Source: an uncultured Clostridia bacterium (GTDB lineage: Bacteria > Bacillota > Clostridia > UBA1381). From it: DNA of 39,484 bases. Positions 20,625 to 37,512 of the stretch are shown here, one piece after another. The stretch is from NCBI GenBank assembly GCA_947585795.1, contig CANPXG010000020.1, forward strand, positions 1 to 39,484. Direction: 5' to 3'. Under the pieces are notes generated by a model. It searched no databases. It was not told where the DNA came from and worked only from the letters and a program-made list of their open reading frames with translations. How positions within the stretch are numbered: position 1 is the first letter of the stretch; each line of letters begins with the position of its first letter. The position numbers and the translations under genes were made by a program.

Positions 20625-23600
20625 TTACTTTGTCGCCTCAAACAAATTCGTCACCTGCTCGTCTGTGAGCGTCGTTCCGTTATAAATATACAAATCATCT
20701 ATAAGTCCGTTAAACGGCGTATCCCAGAAGTTCACACCGAGATACGTGTCGGTGCTGTCGCTTACAGTGTTATTGACCTCGCCGTTTGCGACCTTAACTC
20801 CGTCGATGTAAAGCAATGCCGTAGTACCGTCCGCCGCGATCGTTATTTGATGCCAAGCGTTGTCCATACTTCCGCCTGTAACGTCTTTATAATCTGTACC
20901 GTTTTTAGACCATATCATGGTATTACCGTTTTGCTGCCAGCCAAACGGCGCGCTTACCCAGTTTTCCGACGAGCCTGTTCCGCTGTTAATGAACACACCC
21001 GACGTATGCTGCGTAAACGCATTCGCCTTCATACGGAACGCAATCGTGTATTTGCCGTTTGTTATAACCTTGCCTAAGTTTACACCGTCGCTTCCGTTGC
21101 CGGTCATCGAAAGCGCCTTTCCTTTATAACCGTCGGCGTATGAAGCCGTCGTCGATTTCGGCGTTGTAATTCTTGAACCCGCGTCAAGGGCATCGCTCCA
21201 GCCTACCGTCACCGCGTCGGTACTTGTAACGCTGTCGGTCAAATTATCCTCAAACTCATAATGCGACGTATATCCCGACGGAATCTGATACGGATTTTCA
21301 TTTGCCGTCACCGTTACAGGTTCCGCTGCAGGCTCCATATCCTTCCACGCGTATATCTTAAGCGTCGAATTTGCCTCCTTACGCGCATAGTCGATTTTCA
21401 CCGACTGCCTCATCGACGTAACGGGCACATTATTCAGCAAGCCTACGCCTATAAGCGCGTCGTCCTTGTACTCAGCGGCGTATACCGACACCGTGCCGTA
21501 GAGCATGGCGTTGTTGAGGTAGAAGTTTACGCCGTCGTCCGCGTTCGCCCAAGCGTCGGTTATCGTCGCGAGCATACCCGCTATCGGCTTTTCCTCCGCC
21601 TTGTACACTTCAAATGTTGCCGCGTCCGCGTCAGCTCCCGTAGTGAGCGTCAGCGCGCCGCCGGAGTTTGTGAGATAATAGCCCGGCATTGCGACGCTCT
21701 CAAAGCTCACGCCGTCCTCCGACTCATTCAAAGCCGACATTGTCCTAAACGTCATATTTTTCTTCATATCCGTATCATTCTGCTTTGAATCCTGCGTAAG
21801 AACCACGCTGTTGTCCGCCTGAGCCGCAAGATACAATCCCGGCTTATTCACAGACTGGATCGAAACATAGCTGTCGTTCGACGCGTCAGCCTTACCCTGA
21901 ACGATTTCCCACTGCGCGTCAAGCTTATCGGCAATAACCGTGCCGACCGATACGGATTTAGAAATCGGATAATCACCGTCCGCGCTCGAATTTACAAAGT
22001 TTTCGTGAACGATATAGTCGTCGCCCTGCGTGATTACCGAAGCCGTACCGGTAAGACCTGTCGACGTTTCCTGAATCGGATCTATCGTACCGTCGTCGTT
22101 AAACGTAAATTCCTCAACACATACGCTTCTTCTGAAACCGCTGCCCCAAGGGAGCGCGCCGTTATGGTAGATAAAGTACGTGTGACCGTTAAAGTCTATA
22201 ACGGCGGGATGGTTCGTGTTCGCCGTAGCGGACGGAGGCATAAGAAGTCCGCCGTACTGCCATTTGCCACTCATAAGGTCGTCGGTCGTGGCGTACGCCA
22301 TCTGCTCACGCCAGCCCATCGCGTAGAACAGGTAATACTTACCTGTCGGATTGCCGTTTTCGTCCTTCTGTCTGTAGAGCCACGGAGCCTCCGTATACGA
22401 CGCGGGAGCGCCCGATATGGACGCGTGAATTATATCCGTACCCATTTCAATACTGCCGTTTCCGTCAATATCCTTGATCGAGGTCATGTTCTCGTTAAGC
22501 TCGCATATGAACAAATTTGTGTTGCCCCAGCATAAATACCTGTGCTCAACGCCGTCGACTGTTTCTATATAAACGGTCGGGTCTATGTCGTCGTGCGAAG
22601 CCGCCTCAGGAGTTGTATCAGAGCCTTTTACAAGCGGAGCGCCCAGCGGATCGGTATACGGACCTGTCGGAGAATCCGCTACCGCAACGCCTATCGACTG
22701 TTTGCCGCTGTCCGTTTTTGTCCATGTGCAGTAATAGAGATAATATTTATCCTTGTACTTCACAGCTTGGCTCGCCCAAGCGGAGGTGTCATTGCTTCTC
22801 CACGAAATATCGGTCGCCTTCATCGGCACGCCCTCATATTTCCATGTTTTCATATCCTTTGACGAATACGCGACCCATTCGGGCATTACATATGTTTCGT
22901 TTGTCGCGGTATCATGACCTGCGATTATATAAACCGTGTCGCCGTCAACGAACGCCGCGGGATCTCCGGCGTAAAGCGTAGCGCCGTCAGGACCGAAGCC
23001 TAAGATCGGATTGCCGCCCGCGCTCTTTTCTATCACTATCGGCGAAGCGTATACAACGGGTTTTGTGTGGTACACGTTTGACAGGCTCTTCTTCGCGAGC
23101 TGCGTAACGTGGTTTTGATCAACGCCGGTCAGTCCCACAACAAATTCATCCTCGTCCTTGTCGTAGCCGAACAGCGCGTACATTGTCATAACGTCGCCCG
23201 ACTTATAAAATTCGTCCTTGTTGTTAGACGTGTCGCCTGTCGCGGTAAATGTAAGCGTAACGGTGTGGTCACCGTTAAATTCCCACGTACCTATTTCCGC
23301 GCCGTCCGCGTTTGTCATAGTATCATCGGCGTTAAGCGTCACCTTTGACGAAAGCACCGGTAGGTCATAGTTGCGGTTTACAAGACTGCCGGACGAATTT
23401 ATCGAGCTTCCGACCATCTTTGTCCGGCCTACGGACGCCAAATCATATGTTCCGACGATCATGTCTTTCGGCAGCTCCTGCTCTACCTCGCCCGCGTAGG
23501 TGACGGGGGAGACAACGGGCCAGCCGTCAGCCGTCCAAAGCATTTTCCTTACCTGCAGCGTCGCCGCGATTTCAACGGCGTTCTTTCTCGCGTGCGATAC

Positions 23601-25805
23601 GTAGAAGCTCTCGTCGCCGACGTTAATCACGCTGTTGTGGCCGGGGCCGTAGTAAACAATCGCGTCACCCGCGCCGCTCTGTACGGCGTAGTTGTTGTTT
23701 GTAAGCGCAATCGTTCTCGAGCCGTCGCCGAGACGGTACGAGCCTATCATCTTATATCCTGTCGTCGTTGACGTGCTGCCCGCCGACTGCTGATTATACA
23801 TCGTAACGCCGTTCGCGTCGGTTAAATTCCAGCCGTTTGACGTGCTGAATGAAGTCGAAAGCGGACTCTTGGCAACACGCGTGTTGTAGTTTGAGCCGAG
23901 CCAGCCGTATGATGTGAACGCGTAGCGGTAATCGCCGTGCTCGATCATCCACGCGCCCTCGGGACCGGCAACACCGTTTTTCTGCGTGAATATCGACGTG
24001 CCGAAGTTTTGACAGCTCGAAAGTGTTGCGTTGCCGTCTTGATACGTCACGCCTTCAACAAGTCCCTCGTCCGTCAACGGAGCCGCCTGTATGCCGCCCC
24101 AGAACGAACCCCAGATAAAATACGGGGTATCATCAGTTGCTTCGGCTGTTCCGTGAGTATCCACGTAAATATTCGCGTCGATTGCGTTTGTCTTGTAACT
24201 GTTGTTTTCTTTGGTCGCGAATACAACGCCCGCGTCGACTATATTTGCCTCGGGATCAGCCCAGAACAGCGGTTTGTCGGATTTAATAAGCGCAATAACC
24301 GAGTTTCTGCCGCCGACTTCACAGGATACGGAAATATACATCCAGTAGGGGTGCGCGGTATCATCGGGACGGTATATTACATCGGGTGCCCAGTATGTTG
24401 GGTTTACGTTATTGTAACCGTTAGCCGTCATGTATGTTAATGACTTATCAAGCATCTTTTTTTCATTAGCATTGAGCTTTTCGCCTTTGTGCTCACCACT
24501 TATTTCGACATAATCAGGATTTGTGGTATGAGTGCCGCTGAAGTCGTATTTCGTCCAGTTAATCAAATCCTCCGATGTGAATATCAGATGATGCGACGAA
24601 TATACGTAATATGTATCGTCATTCGGGAATTTCACAATAGACGGATCATGCGCACCGTTGGTCGTTATATCGCTGTCCGCCGGAGCTTTTACGGGAGCCT
24701 TTACGCCGCCGTAGAGCGTCGCGACTGTGTCCGTCACGGTATCGTCCTTTGTGGGAGTGGTGAGCTTTACCGTAACCGTATCGGTTTTTGCGACAGGCGA
24801 AACGGTCACTGTAACCTCAGCCGTGCCGCCGGATACTATCAGCTCTGCTGTTTCTTCGGCGGCTGCTTCCTCGGCATCGTTTAAGTATACTGAAACGGTC
24901 GCTTCACCGTCTGCGGCAGTGTAGTTGTTTATTGTAGACTTGATTGTCAAATTACCATCTAAATCACTCGTCGTGTATATTTCCTCATCGCCGCTGTAGA
25001 ATTTAGTATCGGCGATATAGCAGTTATTGTCCGCGATAAGCTGAGCCGCGGCGTACTTCGCTCCCTCCGCCGAAAGCGCCGCTATCTCATCTTCCGAGAG
25101 CGCTTTTCCGTAAATGCGGAAATCGTCGATAGACCCCTGAAAACCTTCACCGCTGCCCCAGTTCGCGTGACCTATCCACGTTTTTGAATCGGTGGTAAAC
25201 AGCGCGGGAACATCAACAACCACGCTGTCGGAGGCAATAAGCTTACCGTTCGAGTACAGCTTCGTACCGCTTGACTCATACACCGCGACTACATACTGCC
25301 AATCGGCGGTCGACGGCGCGCTGACGGAGCTTAAACGGCTGCCCGCGTTGTTGTAACGCTCAACGGTAAAGCTTTCCGATGTCGCGAGCATACCTATATA
25401 TTTTTCGTTATTTAAGTTATGCAAGTCTTCGCAGGTGTTCATAAACGGCCAGTTTGGCACGCTCGGCGAATCTGCTTTGAGCCAAAACGCAAACGTCGCT
25501 GCCTGCTTGCCCCGTAAAAGCCCGTCCGCAAGCTCAAGATAGTTTCCGGCAGCCTTGGACGAGATATTGAGCGCCTTGCTCTTACCGTCCCAGCTGTCCA
25601 CATACGCCACCGCACCCTTTTCGGTGACCGTACCGCCCACTGTCGCCGCAAACGAGCCGCTGCCCGTACCGGCTTCATCGAACGTCGCGTTAAAGAGCAA
25701 ATCACCCGACGGCAACTCATCCGCCGACACAAACGCGGGAACCGCCGCGATAAGCATCGAAACCGAAATCAAGCCGCTTACGAGCTTTTTTGTCAGTCTG
25801 TTCAT
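20625..25805 (-). CDS. Secreted two-catalytic-domain GH43 arabinan-degrading enzyme
   Basis: This 1726-residue exoenzyme has a signal peptide (1-28, ending AFVSA). A LamG-like domain (36-245) and a beta-sandwich (about 255-370) follow. The first GH43 domain (380-775) has base Asp387 (GAHDPS), Asp543 (AIDAN) and acid Glu616 (GPEGAW), as in endo-1,5-arabinanases. A GH43 C-terminal-type sandwich covers about 780-905. The second GH43 (920-1260) has Asp948 (AGDPAA), Asp1075 (DIDPTV) and Glu1139 (YTEAPW). An AbfB/CBM42-like module (about 1285-1402), an unknown domain (1405-1500) and a second LamG (1515-1723) complete it. It should cut arabinan chains of pectin outside the cell. There is no sortase, SLH or dockerin signal. 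The ribosome site is AAGGAGAGAGG. Confidence 0.87.
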   Translation of the reverse strand: MNRLTKKLVSGLISVSMLIAAVPAFVSADELPSGDLLFNATFDEAGTGSGSFAATVGGTVTEKGAVAYVDSWDGKSKALNISSKAAGNYLELADGLLRGKQAATFAFWLKADSPSVPNWPFMNTCEDLHNLNNEKYIGMLATSESFTVERYNNAGSRLSSVSAPSTADWQYVVAVYESSGTKLYSNGKLIASDSVVVDVPALFTTDSKTWIGHANWGSGEGFQGSIDDFRIYGKALSEDEIAALSAEGAKYAAAQLIADNNCYIADTKFYSGDEEIYTTSDLDGNLTIKSTINNYTAADGEATVSVYLNDAEEAAAEETAELIVSGGTAEVTVTVSPVAKTDTVTVKLTTPTKDDTVTDTVATLYGGVKAPVKAPADSDITTNGAHDPSIVKFPNDDTYYVYSSHHLIFTSEDLINWTKYDFSGTHTTNPDYVEISGEHKGEKLNANEKKMLDKSLTYMTANGYNNVNPTYWAPDVIYRPDDTAHPYWMYISVSCEVGGRNSVIALIKSDKPLFWADPEANIVDAGVVFATKENNSYKTNAIDANIYVDTHGTAEATDDTPYFIWGSFWGGIQAAPLTDEGLVEGVTYQDGNATLSSCQNFGTSIFTQKNGVAGPEGAWMIEHGDYRYAFTSYGWLGSNYNTRVAKSPLSTSFSTSNGWNLTDANGVTMYNQQSAGSTSTTTGYKMIGSYRLGDGSRTIALTNNNYAVQSGAGDAIVYYGPGHNSVINVGDESFYVSHARKNAVEIAATLQVRKMLWTADGWPVVSPVTYAGEVEQELPKDMIVGTYDLASVGRTKMVGSSINSSGSLVNRNYDLPVLSSKVTLNADDTMTNADGAEIGTWEFNGDHTVTLTFTATGDTSNNKDEFYKSGDVMTMYALFGYDKDEDEFVVGLTGVDQNHVTQLAKKSLSNVYHTKPVVYASPIVIEKSAGGNPILGFGPDGATLYAGDPAAFVDGDTVYIIAGHDTATNETYVMPEWVAYSSKDMKTWKYEGVPMKATDISWRSNDTSAWASQAVKYKDKYYLYYCTWTKTDSGKQSIGVAVADSPTGPYTDPLGAPLVKGSDTTPEAASHDDIDPTVYIETVDGVEHRYLCWGNTNLFICELNENMTSIKDIDGNGSIEMGTDIIHASISGAPASYTEAPWLYRQKDENGNPTGKYYLFYAMGWREQMAYATTDDLMSGKWQYGGLLMPPSATANTNHPAVIDFNGHTYFIYHNGALPWGSGFRRSVCVEEFTFNDDGTIDPIQETSTGLTGTASVITQGDDYIVHENFVNSSADGDYPISKSVSVGTVIADKLDAQWEIVQGKADASNDSYVSIQSVNKPGLYLAAQADNSVVLTQDSKQNDTDMKKNMTFRTMSALNESEDGVSFESVAMPGYYLTNSGGALTLTTGADADAATFEVYKAEEKPIAGMLATITDAWANADDGVNFYLNNAMLYGTVSVYAAEYKDDALIGVGLLNNVPVTSMRQSVKIDYARKEANSTLKIYAWKDMEPAAEPVTVTANENPYQIPSGYTSHYEFEDNLTDSVTSTDAVTVGWSDALDAGSRITTPKSTTASYADGYKGKALSMTGNGSDGVNLGKVITNGKYTIAFRMKANAFTQHTSGVFINSGTGSSENWVSAPFGWQQNGNTMIWSKNGTDYKDVTGGSMDNAWHQITIAADGTTALLYIDGVKVANGEVNNTVSDSTDTYLGVNFWDTPFNGLIDDLYIYNGTTLTDEQVTNLFEATK

Positions 25806-26947: not shown

Positions 26948-28828
26948 ATGAAAAAAGCGGCTGCAATAATTATGAGTATGATTTTATTCGCGCTAAGCGC
27001 CGCGTCATGCGCCGCCGACGGCTACACCACACACGAGCCCTACGGCGAAGGCGTGGGCGTTTGCCCCGGACGCGTCGTGTGGGCACACGACAGCGACAGC
27101 GTCACATGGGACGGAAGCGGCTACTGGTGGGACACGAGCCACTTTGACGAGGACAAAATACAAAAAATGGTAGACGATTCGATCGCCGCACTTGCGGGCA
27201 AGGATAACGCCGCTGACGGCTACGACGCGCTGTTTCGCGGCATAAACGAGCGCCGCCAAAGGACTGGCGGCTACAAGTCGGGCGAAAAAATAGCGATAAA
27301 AGCCAACATAAACGGCTCCGCCGTCATGGACGACGACACAAGCGGCGAAACGCAAATGAGCTACACAAATCCTGTTTTACTTAAAACGCTGCTTCTTTCA
27401 CTCGTAAAGGACGCGGGAGCCGCGCCCGAGGACATCACGGTCTACGATGTGTCGCGCCTGTTTCCCGAGTACATGGAAAAAATGTGCACCGAGGGAATAC
27501 TCAGCGGCGTTAATTTTGTAAACCGCGAAAACGGCGTTGCGGACGAAAACGCGCCGATCGTGTGGTCGCACGAATTTAGCGGCGCGGTAAACTACCTCCC
27601 GACGTGCGTCACCGAAGCGGACTACGTGATAAACCTCGCGAACTTAAAGGGACACAGCTACGGAATAACGCTTTGCGGTAAAAACCACTTCGGCTCGTTC
27701 ATAAACGGAAACGCGATGCGTCCGCCGGAGGGAGCAAATCTGCACCAATGGCTCACGCGCAGCGAAATGGGAATTTACAGCCCGCTTGTTGACCTTATGG
27801 CAAACGCGGAGCTTGGCGGCAAGACTGTGCTTTACATGCTCGACGCGCTCATATGCGCGCCGTCGGAGGGCGCATCGATCACAAAGGAAAACTCGACTTG
27901 GCAGCAGGAACCGTTTAACGGCGGCTTCACCGCGAGCGTGTTCACGTCACAGGATCCGGTCGCGATCGACAGCGTCGGCGCGGACTTCCTCATAAACGAA
28001 CCGACGGTCACGAACGCAAATACTGCCGTGAGCGACGTTACGAACGAAAATTATCTCCACGAGGCGGGACTTGTAAAGAACGCGCCTTCGGGCACGGTTT
28101 ACACCGACGGCAAAGGAAACGCCGTCACAAACCTCGGCGTTCACGAGCATTGGAACAACCCGACCGATAAGCAATACAGCCGCAACCTCGGCAAAAACGA
28201 GGGCATAGAGCTTGTCATGGCGAAGCAGTCCGCTGGCGGAAACGTAACGGCGAAATACACCACCGACGGCGAAAACATTACGATTACGGGAGTTGACGGC
28301 GGCGCAAGACTGATTATTGCCGAGTACAGCGAGGGCGGAAGGCTTGTCGGCTGCAAAATGTATAAACCCGAAAACGGCGTTATAACAGCGCCCGACATGT
28401 CCGATACCGTGCGCGTAAAGACGTTTTTGTGGAACATGGACACGCTCGAACCTATTAACGTCACAAAAACCGACGCGGAGGAAAATTTGAAAATAAGCGT
28501 GAAAATCGCCGACGCGGAATTTACCGCCACCCTCGAGGACAACGAAACAGCCGCCGCGTTCAAGGCGATGCTCCCCATGACGCTTGACATGAGCGAGCTT
28601 AACGGCAACGAAAAATACAACTACCTCTCTGCCGACCTCCCGACGGCGGCGGAGAGCGTCGGCACGATCAACGCGGGCGACATAATGCTTTACGGCTCAA
28701 ACTGCGCGGTACTCTTTTACGAAACCTTTGACACGCCGTACAGCTACACGCGCATAGGACATATAGACGACGTGTCGGGACTTAAAGAGGCGGTCGGAGG
28801 CGGAAACGTCACGGTCACGTTTGAATAA
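26948..28828 (+). CDS. Secreted DUF362 protein fused to a cyclophilin-like domain
   Basis: The 626-residue protein has a signal peptide with a lipobox-like ending (SAASC, Cys21), so it is probably a membrane-anchored lipoprotein. Residues about 40-415 match DUF362: EKIAIKANING (113-123), TEADYVINLANLKGHSYGI (222-240), GKNHFGSFING and TSQDPVAIDSVGADFL (333-348). Residues 430-505 form a small beta domain. Residues 514-626 look like the bacterial cyclophilin-like fold (YNYLSADLPTAAESVGTINAGDI, split here at YLSADLP; ALLFYETFDTPYSYTRIG region at 588-604). LysR and sugar-acetyltransferase genes often accompany cyclophilin-like and flavodoxin genes in Clostridia. Chemistry is unknown. The ribosome site is AAGGAGA. 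Confidence 0.75.
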   Translation: MKKAAAIIMSMILFALSAASCAADGYTTHEPYGEGVGVCPGRVVWAHDSDSVTWDGSGYWWDTSHFDEDKIQKMVDDSIAALAGKDNAADGYDALFRGINERRQRTGGYKSGEKIAIKANINGSAVMDDDTSGETQMSYTNPVLLKTLLLSLVKDAGAAPEDITVYDVSRLFPEYMEKMCTEGILSGVNFVNRENGVADENAPIVWSHEFSGAVNYLPTCVTEADYVINLANLKGHSYGITLCGKNHFGSFINGNAMRPPEGANLHQWLTRSEMGIYSPLVDLMANAELGGKTVLYMLDALICAPSEGASITKENSTWQQEPFNGGFTASVFTSQDPVAIDSVGADFLINEPTVTNANTAVSDVTNENYLHEAGLVKNAPSGTVYTDGKGNAVTNLGVHEHWNNPTDKQYSRNLGKNEGIELVMAKQSAGGNVTAKYTTDGENITITGVDGGARLIIAEYSEGGRLVGCKMYKPENGVITAPDMSDTVRVKTFLWNMDTLEPINVTKTDAEENLKISVKIADAEFTATLEDNETAAAFKAMLPMTLDMSELNGNEKYNYLSADLPTAAESVGTINAGDIMLYGSNCAVLFYETFDTPYSYTRIGHIDDVSGLKEAVGGGNVTVTFE

Positions 28829-29542: not shown

Positions 29543-29572
29543 AAAAAAGCCGTCTGTAACAAGACAGACGGC
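29543..29572 (-). terminator. Terminator of the GTPase-NYN gene
   Basis: On the minus strand, GCCGTCTGT pairs with ACAGACGGC around a 6-nt loop and is followed by six T residues. A second hairpin (AGATACG-N8-CGTATCT, 29442-29463) followed by GTTTTATT could act as back-up. Confidence 0.8.
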
Positions 29573-29617: not shown

Positions 29618-32182
29618 TTATTTTTGAGATATTATTTGCATTATAGCCTTTTCGGCGTTTTTGACCTCACTCAATAATTCGTTCGCGCTTACGCGAACAG
29701 CGCCCGAGCCGAGTATTATGATTTGTTCAAGGCTGTCGGACGTAGCCACGCGCACGCGATGGTTCGGCGCGAGAGTATGCGCCGTCTTTTCGATATACAT
29801 ATCGGCTGTTTCGGCTTCCTTTGTGTACACAACGTTTATGTTGTGTATTTTTTCAACGCTTCCCGTATTTCCCTTGACCTTGTACGCGTCGAACACGAGT
29901 ATGAGCTCGCACCGCGTGAAGCCTTGGTAGTTGCAGAGAATGTCCGTAAGCTTGTCGCGCGCGGAGTTGAGGTCTTTTTTTGCGATTTCCTTAAGCTCAT
30001 CCCAGGCGAATATTATGTTATAGCCGTCCACGAGAAGGTACTCGGGACCCGCCTTCGCCATCTTTGCTTTCGGACGCGCGCTTTTCGGCGCGGCTGTCTT
30101 TTTCACGGTGTACGAGGACGTTTTTCGCGTGACGGGACCGTATGTGCGCTCGAATATGCGCATAAGCTCGTTATCGTCCGCGACCGCGCTGATATATTCC
30201 TCCGCGCGGCGGCGGTTTTCCTCGTCCGCGCTCTCCTCATCACCGTCATCGAGCTTCATCGCCTCTATATGCATATAATTCGGCACCTCGTCCCACTTTA
30301 CGGTAAACCCCGCGCCGTGTGAGCAAAATACGGAGTCCGCGGTGTTTTCAAGGTCACCGTCCGCGTCGTAACCGATTTTTTCAATAACGGTGTCACTGTC
30401 CGCGCAAGGCTCGTAGCCGGCGGGGATACATTCGAGCCTGCCCTTGCCGCTTGTATAAGACGTTACCTCCTTACCGTACCCGCGCATCGCGGCGACGGGC
30501 GCGCTGCCCGTGATAACGGTCATATCGCCGCGCGTTTCGTCCTGTGAGAACGCGCCGCCCATTTGGGATATGTCGGTCATGGCGCGGCCCACACATTCTG
30601 AGGGAAGCTCAAGGCGAAAGTCGTAGTAGGGCTCAAGGAGAATACTTTGAGCCGTCCTAAGCCCTTGGCGCACGGCGCGGTACGTCGCCTGACGGAAATC
30701 GCCGCCCTCCGTGTGCTTTTGGTGGGCGCGCCCCGCTATGAGAGTTATTTTCATATCTGTTATCGGCGAGCCTGTGAGCACGCCGACATGCTGTTTTTCC
30801 TTTAAATGCGTAAGTATGAGCCGCTGCCAGTTACGGTCAAGCGTGTCCTCGCCGCAATCGGCGGCGAAGCTCAGACCGCTGCCTCTTTTTGTCGGCTCAA
30901 GCAGAAGATGCACCTCCGCGTAGTGACGCAGCGGCTCGTAATGCCCCACGCCCTCCACGCGCGACGCGATCGTTTCCTTGTACGCGATAGCGCCGTCCGT
31001 GAACGTCACGGCGAAGCCGAACCTGTCCGCGATCACGCGCGTAAGCACCTCAAGCTGTACCTCACCCATGACGCGGACATGGATCTCCTTAAGCTGCTCG
31101 TTCCATATGACGTGAAGCTGCGGATCCTCCTCTTCAAGGCGGCGAAGCGCCGTAAGCGCCGCGCTCACATTAACGCCCTCCTCGATCTCCGCCTTATACG
31201 TCATAACGCTTTCAAGAAGCGCGTTTTTCGCGTCCTCCGCAAAACCTATACCCTCACCGGGATACGTTTTCGTAAGCCCCGTGACGGCGCAGACCGTACC
31301 GGGAAACGCTTCGTCTGCGGCGCGGTACTTCGCGCCGGAATACACGCGTATCTGATTTACCTTTTCGCTCCACTCATTGCGCTTGTTACCGGTAAGCAAG
31401 TCCTTCACCTTAAGCGAACCGCCCAGTATTTTCATATGCGTAAGACGGTTACCCTGCTCATCCTCCGAAATTTTAAAAACGCGCGCCCCGAAATTACCGT
31501 CATATATGACGCGGCGCGTATAAAGCGCAAGACCGTCCAAAAACTCACGCACGCCCGACATTTTGAGCGCGCTGCCCGCGAAGCACGGAAACACCTTGCG
31601 CTGCATTATCGCGTTACGCACATCCTCCGTTTTCACATTTCCGCTTTCGAGGTAACGGTTCATAATGGTTTCATCACACATTGAAACCTCATCCTTAAAC
31701 TCCTCGCTCCCGACGCGCGTAAAATCCACGCACCCGTCACCGAAACGGTACTTTAACTCACTCATCACGCTGTCAAGATCCGCGTGCAGATCCATTTTAT
31801 TTATAAACAAAAACACCGGCACGCCGTACCTTTCAAGGAGCCGCCACAGCGTTTCCGTATGATTTTGCACTCCGTCCGCACCGCTTATAACGAGTATCGC
31901 GTAATCGAGCACACTTAACGTACGCTCCGTTTCGGTTGAAAAATCTATATGTCCGGGCGTGTCAAGGAGCGTAAACTCCGTATCACCGCGCCGCATAACG
32001 GCTTGCTTTGAAAAAATCGTAATACCGCGGTCACGCTCTATCACATTATTGTCGAGAAACGCGTCGCCGTGATCCACTCTCCCAAGCGACCGCACCGCGC
32101 CGCACTCATACAGCATCGCCTCCGACAGCGTCGTCTTACCCGAGTCAACGTGCGCGAGTATCCCTATAACAAGTCTGTTCAT
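29618..32182 (-). CDS. TetM/EF-G-like ribosomal GTPase fused to a Rae1/YacP-type NYN ribonuclease
   Basis: Residues 1-615 form a TetM/EF-G-type translational GTPase: P-loop AHVDSGKTT (10-18), switch I IERDRGITI (48-56), DTPGH (74-78), NKMD (128-131), then domains II-V. The TetM tip loop (YSPVSTPADFR) reads AHQKHTEGGDFR, so tetracycline rescue is doubtful. After a basic Ala/Pro/Lys linker (about 685-712), residues 714-850 closely resemble B. subtilis Rae1 (YacP), which cleaves mRNA in the ribosomal A site. The acidic residues are kept: Asp719 (LLVDGYN), Asp765 (VFDA), Asp794 (ETAD), Asp816 (ATSD). I infer a ribosome-targeted RNase delivered by a GTPase. The ATG at 32182 has a weak site (GGGGCGG). 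Confidence 0.85.
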   Translation of the reverse strand: MNRLVIGILAHVDSGKTTLSEAMLYECGAVRSLGRVDHGDAFLDNNVIERDRGITIFSKQAVMRRGDTEFTLLDTPGHIDFSTETERTLSVLDYAILVISGADGVQNHTETLWRLLERYGVPVFLFINKMDLHADLDSVMSELKYRFGDGCVDFTRVGSEEFKDEVSMCDETIMNRYLESGNVKTEDVRNAIMQRKVFPCFAGSALKMSGVREFLDGLALYTRRVIYDGNFGARVFKISEDEQGNRLTHMKILGGSLKVKDLLTGNKRNEWSEKVNQIRVYSGAKYRAADEAFPGTVCAVTGLTKTYPGEGIGFAEDAKNALLESVMTYKAEIEEGVNVSAALTALRRLEEEDPQLHVIWNEQLKEIHVRVMGEVQLEVLTRVIADRFGFAVTFTDGAIAYKETIASRVEGVGHYEPLRHYAEVHLLLEPTKRGSGLSFAADCGEDTLDRNWQRLILTHLKEKQHVGVLTGSPITDMKITLIAGRAHQKHTEGGDFRQATYRAVRQGLRTAQSILLEPYYDFRLELPSECVGRAMTDISQMGGAFSQDETRGDMTVITGSAPVAAMRGYGKEVTSYTSGKGRLECIPAGYEPCADSDTVIEKIGYDADGDLENTADSVFCSHGAGFTVKWDEVPNYMHIEAMKLDDGDEESADEENRRRAEEYISAVADDNELMRIFERTYGPVTRKTSSYTVKKTAAPKSARPKAKMAKAGPEYLLVDGYNIIFAWDELKEIAKKDLNSARDKLTDILCNYQGFTRCELILVFDAYKVKGNTGSVEKIHNINVVYTKEAETADMYIEKTAHTLAPNHRVRVATSDSLEQIIILGSGAVRVSANELLSEVKNAEKAIMQIISQK

Positions 32183-32217: not shown

Positions 32218-32247
32218 ATCATACCACAACGCGCATATTTTGTCCAA
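32218..32247 (-). promoter_or_regulatory. Promoter of the GTPase-NYN gene
   Basis: On the minus strand, TTGGAC (32242-32247) and TATGAT (32218-32223) are 18 bp apart with a TGG extended -10. It is divergent from the promoter of RNA A, 18 bp away. Confidence 0.6.
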
Positions 32248-34456: not shown

Positions 34457-34578
34457 ATCAACTTCAAAAATCAGATAAAAATTTATAAAAATCAGAAGTC
34501 ATATAAAAAACAAACCCACTTTTTGTAACAGATATGATACAATGCTGTAAAGATTTATTCATGAAAGGAAGTAATGCT

Positions 34579-37512
34579 ATGAAAAGAAATAGACTTACAG
34601 CCGCGTTGATTGCGGCGGTAATGCTGGCAGCTTCGGCGTCGGGCGTATTTGCCGCCGAGGTGGGCGAGAGCCTTAAGGTCGGCGACTACAAGGAAAGCGC
34701 CGCCGCGACTCAGGCTATGGTCGACGCTCGTCCCGATATTCAGCGTCCTATGGAGAAGCTGGGAAGAGGCGCGGTTGCCGTGAAGCTGGACGGCTACGTT
34801 TATATTTCGTGGCGCTGGCTCGGCACGGAGAGCGCGGACACGAAGTACAATGTGTACGCGTCATCGGGAAGCGACTGGACGAAGCTCAATCCCGAGCCGC
34901 TTAACGCGACGAATTACACCTCTCTCTCAAACCAATACGATGAATTTAAGGTCGTGCCTGTCGTAAACGGCGCTGAGGACGAGTCCTCCGCCGAAACGGT
35001 GAAGGCGTGGGACAAGAACTATATCGACATCCCCATTCAGCGTCCCGACGGCAATAAGGTTCAGGACGAGGAGTACACCTATTCGCCTTCGGATGCGTCG
35101 ATAGGCGACCTTGACGGCGACGGCGACTACGAGATAGTATTAAAGTGGGATCCGTCAAACGGCAAGGACGCGGCTCAGTTCGGTTACACGGGCGAGTGCA
35201 TCATTGACGCGTACGAAATGGACGGCACGCGTATGTGGCGCATAAATATGGGACCGAATATCCGCGCCGGTCAGCACGACACGCAGTTCATGGTCTATGA
35301 CTACGACGGCGACGGCAAGGCGGAAATGGCTTGCCGCACGGCTGACGGAACGATAGCGGGCGACGGCGCCGTTATCGGCGATAAGGATAAGAACTGGGCT
35401 ATATTGAACGGCGGAAAGAACCTTCAGGGACCTCTCTACCTCACCGTATTCAAGGGCGAGGACGGAAGCGTTATAGACACCGTTGACTATGATCCGCAGA
35501 CTCAGGGAACGACAGACAGCGGCTACAAGTGGGACGTTGTGACGTGGGGCGACGCGGGCGGTAACCGTTCCGAGAGATACCTTGCGGCTGTGGCGTACCT
35601 TGACGGCGTAAGACCGAGCATGGTATTCGCGAGAGGCTATTACACGGGACCTGAGGGCGACGCGGGCGGCAGGACCGTTATCGCGGCGTTTGACCTGAAG
35701 GACGGCAAAATAGAGAAGAAATGGCGTTTTGACACGCTCGATTACGAAAATAAGTACATCGGTCAGGGCAACCACTCGATGAGCGCGGCTGACGTTGACT
35801 TTGACGGCTGTGACGAACTTATCTACGGAAGCCTCGGAATAGATAACGACGGAACTCCGATGTATTCGACGGGACTTGGTCACGGCGACGCTCAGCACGT
35901 GGGCGACCTTGATCCGTCAAGACCGGGACTTGAGGTTTACTCATGCCATGAGGACAGCGGCTCCGCTTACGGCTATGAAATGCGCGACGCGCGCACGGGC
36001 GAAATCCTTTACGGAGAAAGAACGAGCAACGATAACGGACGCGGCACGTCGGACGATATAGATCCCGCGTATCCGGGCGCCGAGGGCTGGTCTGCGGCGG
36101 GCGTGCTGACCGCGGCTGACGGCACTGTTATTTCAACGTCGTACACGATGAGCGCGAACTTCCTTGCGTACTGGGACGGCGATCTCGGACGCGAGGTTCA
36201 GGACGGTATCTATATAAGCAAGTGGAACGGCGGCGTGCAGAAGGCGGAAACGATATTCACCGCGTCGGGATGCGTCGCGGTAAACGGCACGAAGGCTAAC
36301 CCCGCGCTTACGGCTGATATGTTCGGCGACTGGCGCGAGGAGGTAATGTACCCGTTAAAGGACGGCAGCGCCCTTCGTATTTACACGACGACAACGCCGA
36401 CCTCGTACAGAATACCGACGCTTATGCAGGATATCCAGTACAGAATGCACGTGGCTTATCAGAACGACTGCTATAACCAGCCGACGCATACGAGCTACTA
36501 TTTGGGCTTTGACACAAAGACGGTGCCCGTACCGCAGATATACACCGTGGGCGACAACGCGAAGAACCCCGACCTTTCAAAGAAGTCGTGGAACATAAGC
36601 GATCTGTACACGGGCGAAAAGGTAGAGCTTGTTGTGGGCACTCCGACGGCGGTAGTCGACGGTCAGCCGATAAGAATAGATAACGACAGCACGGACGTTG
36701 TTCCGATAGTTGACGAGAACGACCGCACTCTCGTGCCGCTTCGCTTTATCGCGGAGGCGTTCGGCGCGGACGTTGAGTGGGTAGGCGCAACGCAGGAGAT
36801 AAAGATAAACGGCGGCGACATCGTCATGAAGATAGGCAGCGCGGACTACACCGTTTCCGGAAGCGCCAAGACGATGGACACAGCTCCCGTGATTCGTGAC
36901 GACAGAACTCTCGTGCCCCTAAGAGCCATTACGGAAAGCTTGGGCAAGACGGTTTACTGGAACAACGGTCTTATCGTGATTTCCGATATAGACACGTCCA
37001 TGTCGGACGAAGCGGCGGCAGCCAGAAAAGCGTCTATCGCGAGCGCGCCCGTACCCGCGAAGGTCGAGAAGGTCGCGATAAACGGAGTGGGCGAGAAGTA
37101 CTACCCCGAACAGCTTGACGTTTACGGCGTGACGGCGAGCGATAACGACGGCAACGTTGAAACGGGAGCCGTTGACCTCGACATAACGACGCGCTGGTCA
37201 GGCTACGGTCCGAACACTCTGACGATAGATTTGGGAAGCGAGCAGGAGGTTGCCGGCGTGGCGATAGCCATGTGGAAGGGCAGCGAGAGAATTTATCCGT
37301 TCATCATCGAGTACAGCTCCGACGGCGAGAACTGGAAAACTGCTCTGCCCAAGACGCAGAACACGGGCGAAAGCGAGGAATTTGAGAAGTACATGTTCCC
37401 CGAAACGGTAAAGGCGCAGTACATCCGTTACAACGGTGACGGCGCGACGGATCCGACGAAAAATTATTGTCATATAAGCGAGATCGCCGTATTGGGAACG
37501 ACGGCTCAGTAA
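34579..37512 (+). CDS. Secreted PL11 rhamnogalacturonan lyase with CuAO-N-like and discoidin modules
   Basis: PL11 lyases (YesW/YesX type) cut the rhamnogalacturonan-I backbone by beta-elimination. After a signal peptide (1-26, ending GVFAA), residues about 50-655 match PL11: RPMEKLGRGAVAV, YISWRWLG, Ca-binding DLDGDGDYEIV (177-187) and DYDGDGKAEM (241-250), QGNHSMSAADVDFDG, and SYTMSANFLAYWDGD. Residues 690-803 are two copper-amine-oxidase N-terminal-like stalk repeats (DENDRTLVPLRFIAEAFGA; RDDRTLVPLRAITESLG). Residues about 835-975 are an F5/8 type C (CBM32-like) module. The start at 34579 follows AAAGGAAG. An extended -10 (TGA-TACAAT, 34534-34542 region) lies upstream. It complements the GH43 enzyme. 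Confidence 0.92.
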   Translation: MKRNRLTAALIAAVMLAASASGVFAAEVGESLKVGDYKESAAATQAMVDARPDIQRPMEKLGRGAVAVKLDGYVYISWRWLGTESADTKYNVYASSGSDWTKLNPEPLNATNYTSLSNQYDEFKVVPVVNGAEDESSAETVKAWDKNYIDIPIQRPDGNKVQDEEYTYSPSDASIGDLDGDGDYEIVLKWDPSNGKDAAQFGYTGECIIDAYEMDGTRMWRINMGPNIRAGQHDTQFMVYDYDGDGKAEMACRTADGTIAGDGAVIGDKDKNWAILNGGKNLQGPLYLTVFKGEDGSVIDTVDYDPQTQGTTDSGYKWDVVTWGDAGGNRSERYLAAVAYLDGVRPSMVFARGYYTGPEGDAGGRTVIAAFDLKDGKIEKKWRFDTLDYENKYIGQGNHSMSAADVDFDGCDELIYGSLGIDNDGTPMYSTGLGHGDAQHVGDLDPSRPGLEVYSCHEDSGSAYGYEMRDARTGEILYGERTSNDNGRGTSDDIDPAYPGAEGWSAAGVLTAADGTVISTSYTMSANFLAYWDGDLGREVQDGIYISKWNGGVQKAETIFTASGCVAVNGTKANPALTADMFGDWREEVMYPLKDGSALRIYTTTTPTSYRIPTLMQDIQYRMHVAYQNDCYNQPTHTSYYLGFDTKTVPVPQIYTVGDNAKNPDLSKKSWNISDLYTGEKVELVVGTPTAVVDGQPIRIDNDSTDVVPIVDENDRTLVPLRFIAEAFGADVEWVGATQEIKINGGDIVMKIGSADYTVSGSAKTMDTAPVIRDDRTLVPLRAITESLGKTVYWNNGLIVISDIDTSMSDEAAAARKASIASAPVPAKVEKVAINGVGEKYYPEQLDVYGVTASDNDGNVETGAVDLDITTRWSGYGPNTLTIDLGSEQEVAGVAIAMWKGSERIYPFIIEYSSDGENWKTALPKTQNTGESEEFEKYMFPETVKAQYIRYNGDGATDPTKNYCHISEIAVLGTTAQ

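Follow-up and report, generated by a model that had tools for sequence, protein, structure and literature searches.

The gene at positions 29618..32182 of a 39,484-base contig from an uncultured Clostridia bacterium (the contig at its full length is called the window here) encodes an 854-residue protein in which a GTPase of the elongation factor G (EF-G) type is followed by an NYN nuclease domain of the Rae1 (YacP) family. We propose, from comparative sequence evidence, that the protein is probably a fused Rae1, that is, a ribosome-dependent mRNA endonuclease with an EF-G-like GTPase, and that it replaces free Rae1 in many Clostridia. This reading is drawn from the completeness and conservation of both halves, the Rae1 fold and acidic residues of the nuclease, the near-exclusion of fused and free forms from the same genomes, and a yacP that is missing or degraded at its customary locus in genomes with the fusion. 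The open reading frame (ORF) is on the minus strand, which a preliminary description of this DNA had not named, and runs from an ATG through its own stop codon in the interior of the contig.

The nuclease half matches the Pfam family NYN_YacP (PF05991) over residues 716-851 (29630..30037, minus strand) with 171.8 bits against a gathering cut-off of 24.6 (E-value 1.6e-50), and a phmmer search of the PDB matched the B. subtilis YacP structures 5MQ8 and 5MQ9 to residues 715-849 at ∼9e-27. The domain has the Rae1 fold, and D719, D765, D794 and D816 line up with residues 7, 53, 81 and 104 of the B. subtilis Rae1 chain (positions counted by hand on the alignment). These aspartates, which we take to be the catalytic residues of a Rae1-type nuclease, are kept in all 47 aligned fusions. 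The preliminary description had recognized both a C-terminal Rae1-type domain and its four intact aspartates, and the alignments bear this out. Lack of a significant NYN_YacP match, which that description named as a ground for refutation, is excluded by the profile score. Rae1 of B. subtilis is a free protein of ∼170 residues, whereas the nuclease described here lies C-terminal to a GTPase and is shorter at its own C-terminus; the free gene in Clostridia is usually found between rlmB and sigH, whereas the fusion gene sits elsewhere in the genome. In the consulted sections of PMC12320835 and PMC10100781, B. subtilis Rae1 is described as cleaving mRNA in a translation-dependent manner and as acting within the ribosomal A site.

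The GTPase half has the five domains and intact GTPase residues of an EF-G/EF-2-type factor, in agreement with its preliminary description as a complete translational GTPase. Pfam matches, all on the minus strand, comprise the GTP-binding domain (GTP_EFTU, residues 4-221, 31520..32173, 2.9e-49), domain II (EF-G_D2, residues 231-305, 31268..31492), domain III (EFG_III, residues 343-394, 31001..31156), domain IV (EFG_IV, residues 398-512, 30647..30991) and domain V (EFG_C, residues 515-595, 30398..30640). Residues D13, K16, T55, D74, H78, N128 and D131 are present in 47 of 47 aligned fusions. Domain V is followed by a conserved C-terminal module (residues 596-645, 30248..30397, minus strand), with which the chain of the unfused relatives examined stops, and then by a variable linker of 67 residues (646-712, 30047..30247, minus strand), in which the predicted model has pLDDT values below 50 at residues 646-653 and 685-709. 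The TetM structure 3j9y can be aligned with this model as far as model residue 635.

Fused and related unfused GTPases group in a single clade, separate from the Tet and EF-G rows, with 100% SH-aLRT support in two trees, one of 77 and one of 81 rows, built by a quick method for which the program gave a long-branch warning. The signature of this clade is the tip loop of domain IV (residues 484-499, GRAHQKHTEGGDFRQA, 30686..30733, minus strand), which has the consensus HxKHTxGGDFR in the fusions. H487 is found in 46 and K489 in 45 of the 47, while H490, T491, G493, G494, D495, F496 and R497 are invariant; the same tip is present in 13 of 14 unfused rows that occur beside Rae1 and in all four without NYN_YacP. 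H487 aligns with H573 of Thermus thermophilus EF-G (counted by hand on the alignment); the fusion shares with EF-G (fusA) the five domains, the GTPase residues and a tip histidine. It differs from EF-G in the remainder of the tip loop, in belonging to a separate clade and in scoring well below both EF-G cut-offs of NCBIfam (290.3 bits against 659.4 for TIGR00484 and 339.5 against 583 for NF009381).

The distribution of the two forms was surveyed in 391 genomes of the class, in which fused and free genes were assigned by ORF length; 31 free rows (from 30 genomes) and 47 aligned fusions were also read at the sequence level. NYN_YacP was found over its cut-off in 248 genomes, of which 12 had ORFs of intermediate length and were excluded, leaving 236 that could be assigned: the fused form is present in 130 and the free form in 107, with one genome in both counts (G330), the only case of co-occurrence. 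Recurrence in Clostridia, as anticipated in the preliminary description, is thus extensive. One of the genomes counted as fused (G224) has a contig that ends at the locus and its GTPase on another contig. Seventy genera are fused only, 73 free only and three mixed; the corresponding numbers of families are 19, 28 and 6. Outside the class sample, none of 15 fused genomes from a sample of the phylum had a second NYN_YacP copy over the cut-off. The unfused GTPase provides a control: of the 22 class genomes that have it, 15 also have free Rae1, versus 1 of 130 with the fusion (these counts, like those for the exclusion, cover related genomes). The absence of free Rae1 therefore tracks the nuclease half and not the GTPase. 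The search for a separate yacP that the preliminary description had suggested was carried out in the window's genome, a draft assembly of 130 contigs that is 86.5% complete; none was found, which agrees with the class-wide exclusion.

The slot that yacP usually occupies provides further evidence. The gene rlmB was searched for in 28 of the 391 class genomes and found in 27. In six genomes with free Rae1 (G259, G364, G109, G210, G059 and G330, the last being the genome that holds both forms) yacP lies after rlmB and before sigH; of the two other free-Rae1 genomes in this survey, G110 is cut off by a contig edge and in G243 yacP lies elsewhere. In 12 of 18 fused-only genomes the gene after rlmB is sigH and no intact yacP lies between them; SigH was identified by NCBIfam for one of these, and tblastn confirmed it for each of the 18 loci at issue. 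In genus g35 yacP is kept in G059 and no intact copy is present in six fused congeners, and in genus g30 it is kept in two free genomes and missing from two fused ones. In the fused genome G025 (L228) the rlmB–sigH gap contains a degraded yacP whose pieces lie in two reading frames and which is interrupted by several in-frame stops. A weak yacP match in the slot of the fused genome G348 (E-value 0.02), with an exact YTKENETAD ∼20 bases past rlmB, is perhaps a relic. The survey also included G029 and G334, which have an unfused GTPase and no NYN_YacP; G334 is the genome without an rlmB match. Twelve Clostridioides plasmid records matched the NYN domain, and in the one in which gene order was read (L248, from C. 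difficile) the order is cysS-thyX-rlmB-NYN-sigH-tuf-nusG-rplK; this plasmid-filed record is probably a chromosomal fragment.

Several observations weigh against a fused Rae1 that has replaced the free one. The Fisher probability for the exclusion (9e-23, computed before G224 was reclassified as fused) is inflated because the genomes are related; within families in which both forms occur, the single co-occurrence observed compares with only ∼7 to 8 expected. NYN_YacP was not found over the cut-off in 143 of the 391 class genomes, so that Rae1-type activity is dispensable in many Clostridia. The slot is uninformative in 6 of the 18 fused-only genomes, the window's own included, because other genes come after rlmB, and no yacP trace was found in the remaining 10 of the 12 emptied slots. 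The window's NYN domain covers positions 1-138 of the 166 in the profile and ends early; since the domains of other fusions extend to position 165, the shortening is a trait of the window's lineage. Fused NYN domains do not form one clade in the NYN tree, which requires two changes between fused and free states (one change in 4% of 200 bootstrap trees). In that tree 29 of 31 free rows group together (99/87), and the other two rows are a single gene of G243, which groups with the fused-type domains. G243 (L073, L108) carries its free NYN and an unfused GTPase as separate genes on different contigs and may represent either a pre-fusion state or fission. Our literature search found no published activity measurement of the fusion. 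Finally, unfused GTPases were found in 29 genomes of the class and phylum samples, 10 of them without NYN_YacP (7 of the 22 class genomes and 3 of the 7 from the phylum), and because they occur without the nuclease the GTPase must have a function of its own, perhaps in sensing or clearing paused ribosomes. The class count of 22 includes G168, a weak profile match (2e-159) placed by the tree and not by its tip loop, and G034, G078 and G207, which were assigned on their lack of NYN_YacP and not on ORF length; it leaves out G273 and G117 (∼1e-141), G147 and G049, which the trees show as Tet-like, and G131, whose locus is at a contig edge. Clade members without NYN_YacP include L122-L125 (G183, G029, G062 and G334). 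A search for Tet-type relatives covered 80 genomes, 74 with free Rae1 and six without NYN_YacP. A partnership between unfused GTPase and free Rae1 was considered (15 of 107 genomes versus 7 of 142 without NYN_YacP, p=0.022) but is not relied on, since many of the 15 come from a single family (f42).

GTPases of the EF-G type dock at the factor site, from which they extend into the A site. The proposal of the preliminary description that a single polypeptide docks on stalled ribosomes, cuts the mRNA and is released is plausible. The GTPase would bind at the factor site when a ribosome is paused or has an empty A site, and the nuclease, carried on its flexible linker, would cut the A-site mRNA, which the 67 residues of the linker with their low-confidence stretch could allow it to reach. 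Because the nuclease and domain IV can hardly share the A site, cutting would probably occur before the entry of domain IV or after its withdrawal. Hydrolysis of GTP would then time release, and tmRNA or another rescue system would clear the truncated complex. We consider it quite likely that the fusion performs the job of Rae1, and give mechanistic coupling of its two halves an even chance. As to how Rae1 finds and leaves paused ribosomes, a natural GTPase fusion in place of the free enzyme suggests that Rae1 can do its work while docked at the factor site, and the fusion offers a way to trap a Rae1–ribosome complex. Evenly balanced, in our view, is the broader proposition that this GTPase forms a translational subfamily of its own which is the dedicated delivery vehicle for an A-site mRNA endonuclease, that the fusion is the usual Rae1 of many gut Clostridia and that displacement of the free form was repeated.

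A rather unlikely alternative is that one chain performs two jobs, the GTPase doing ribosome work of its own, as its unfused relatives must, and the nuclease doing that of Rae1, with no coupling between them and the fusion giving only co-expression or stability. The class genomes that carry an unfused GTPase, 15 of them with free Rae1 and 7 without it, the separate halves in G243 and the long, variable linker all fit such an arrangement, but coupling would be natural because Rae1 is described in the A site and EF-G-type GTPases reach the same site. Moreover, a single branch separates the fused rows from all others in both GTPase trees (98%), which fits a single fusion event, and the nuclease aspartates are conserved throughout the aligned fusions.

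The architecture itself is already in print. Atkinson 2015 (PMC4342817), as far as the consulted part of that paper goes, reported a YacP-like NYN domain on clostridial Tet proteins of ten species, classed these proteins as Tet and considered the domain a possible resistance mechanism. The window protein has the same architecture and is a member of that group; the present analysis differs in finding a separate GTPase clade, a far wider spread and evidence that the free Rae1 is replaced. The literature search, which missed the main Rae1 papers, found no further description of the fusion. A 2018 account of Rae1 distribution by Condon may already mention it. The main text of PMC8547433 does not contain YacP.

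It is improbable that the fusion is a ribosomal protection protein of the tetracycline type to which an RNase was added as part of a resistance mechanism, as suggested in Atkinson 2015, and here the preliminary description, which had called the GTPase TetM-type, is not supported. Although the fusion shares with Tet(M) and Tet(O) a five-domain EF-G-like layout and a short C-terminal extension, it differs from them in tree position, score, domain IV tip and nuclease. It scores 397.8 bits against the NCBIfam tet_protect cut-off of 775. Tip loops of Tet proteins displace the drug, according to the part of PMC4342817 consulted, and the tip of both over-cut-off Tet rows compared, SPxSTPADF, is absent from the fusions, all 47 of which have HTxGGDFR; three Tet-like rows under the cut-off have other tip loops, two of them sharing a few residues with the fusion clade. 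The wide chromosomal distribution and the replacement of a housekeeping nuclease also argue against resistance. Labels are a separate matter: the Agathobacter rectalis fusion is annotated as TetM/TetW/TetO/TetS family tetracycline resistance, so that, as the preliminary description had supposed, a resistance label hides the nuclease, and the Monoglobus fusion is labelled 'translation factor GTPase family protein'. Replacement of free Rae1 by the fusion suggests that what some gut genomes list as a tetracycline-resistance GTPase is a translation-quality factor, a point that bears on microbiome resistance-gene counts. An unfused gene on the megaplasmid pMP118 of Ligilactobacillus salivarius UCC118 (LSL_RS10690, 3986-5920 of the record) carries the TetM/TetW/TetO/TetS label as well. 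Its product shares the HTxGGDFR tip (with V, not K, before HT) and the C-terminal module with the fusion, and differs in stopping near the start of the fusion's linker without a nuclease; judged from tip and module, the resistance label is doubtful.

That the nuclease targets rRNA or tRNA in maturation or ribosome turnover, with the GTPase selecting ribosomes, is very improbable: rRNA and tRNA maturation was once proposed for the YacP-type domain (cited in the consulted part of PMC4342817) and C. difficile yacP has rlmB and a gene with a ribonuclease III domain among its neighbours, but the close relative B. subtilis Rae1 is described as cutting mRNA in a translation-dependent way (PMC12320835, PMC10100781). 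A chance joining of two genes by assembly, conceivable in a draft of 130 contigs and raised in the preliminary description, can be dismissed, since the architecture recurs in 130 class genomes, several of them single-contig, and at least 80 loci in named genomes match the query.

Those loci come from a scan in which at least 80 were kept; all 80 are fused and match the whole query or nearly so. Cultured carriers among the matches listed are Intestinimonas butyriciproducens An565, Ruminococcus flavefaciens FD-1, Anaerovorax odorimutans DSM 5092 and Fusibacter sp. 3D3. Two plasmid records matched with at least 80% query coverage, one from Monoglobus (518 kb, with secA) and one from Agathobacter (252 kb), and an NYN search of a phage collection matched 12 records, all without annotation. 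When 504 ORFs within ∼7 kb of 45 fused loci, some of them cut by contig ends, were clustered, no family occurred at more than five loci, and hence there is no operon partner. One assembly (G133, 61% complete) has two distinct fused genes of 883 and 889 residues (L080, L081). In G221 (L079) the NYN-bearing frame has only 618 residues on a 1.79 Mb contig and a separate P-loop ORF of 285 residues lies nearby, perhaps a broken or split fusion.

Around the gene, a promoter-like site (TGGACA-17-TATGAT with TG ahead of the second hexamer, 32218..32246, minus strand) ends ∼35 bases upstream of the ATG, and a terminator-like hairpin with a T-run (29549..29572, minus strand) lies ∼46 bases downstream of the stop codon. 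Both are candidates from consensus matching, which gave 4 promoter-like sites in the region versus 3.2 expected from shuffles and 12 terminator-like sites versus 5.0 expected. An Rfam scan of the whole window at gathering scores gave no match. Elsewhere in the window are genes for a 1726-residue GH43 protein with laminin-G and AbfB domains (20625-25805, minus strand) and a 992-residue rhamnogalacturonan lyase family 11 protein with an F5/8 type C domain (34534-37512, plus strand), which suggest a pectin-degrading bacterium. A further gene (26948-28828, plus strand) encodes a 626-residue protein in which DUF362 is joined to a C-terminal Cyclophil_like2 domain.
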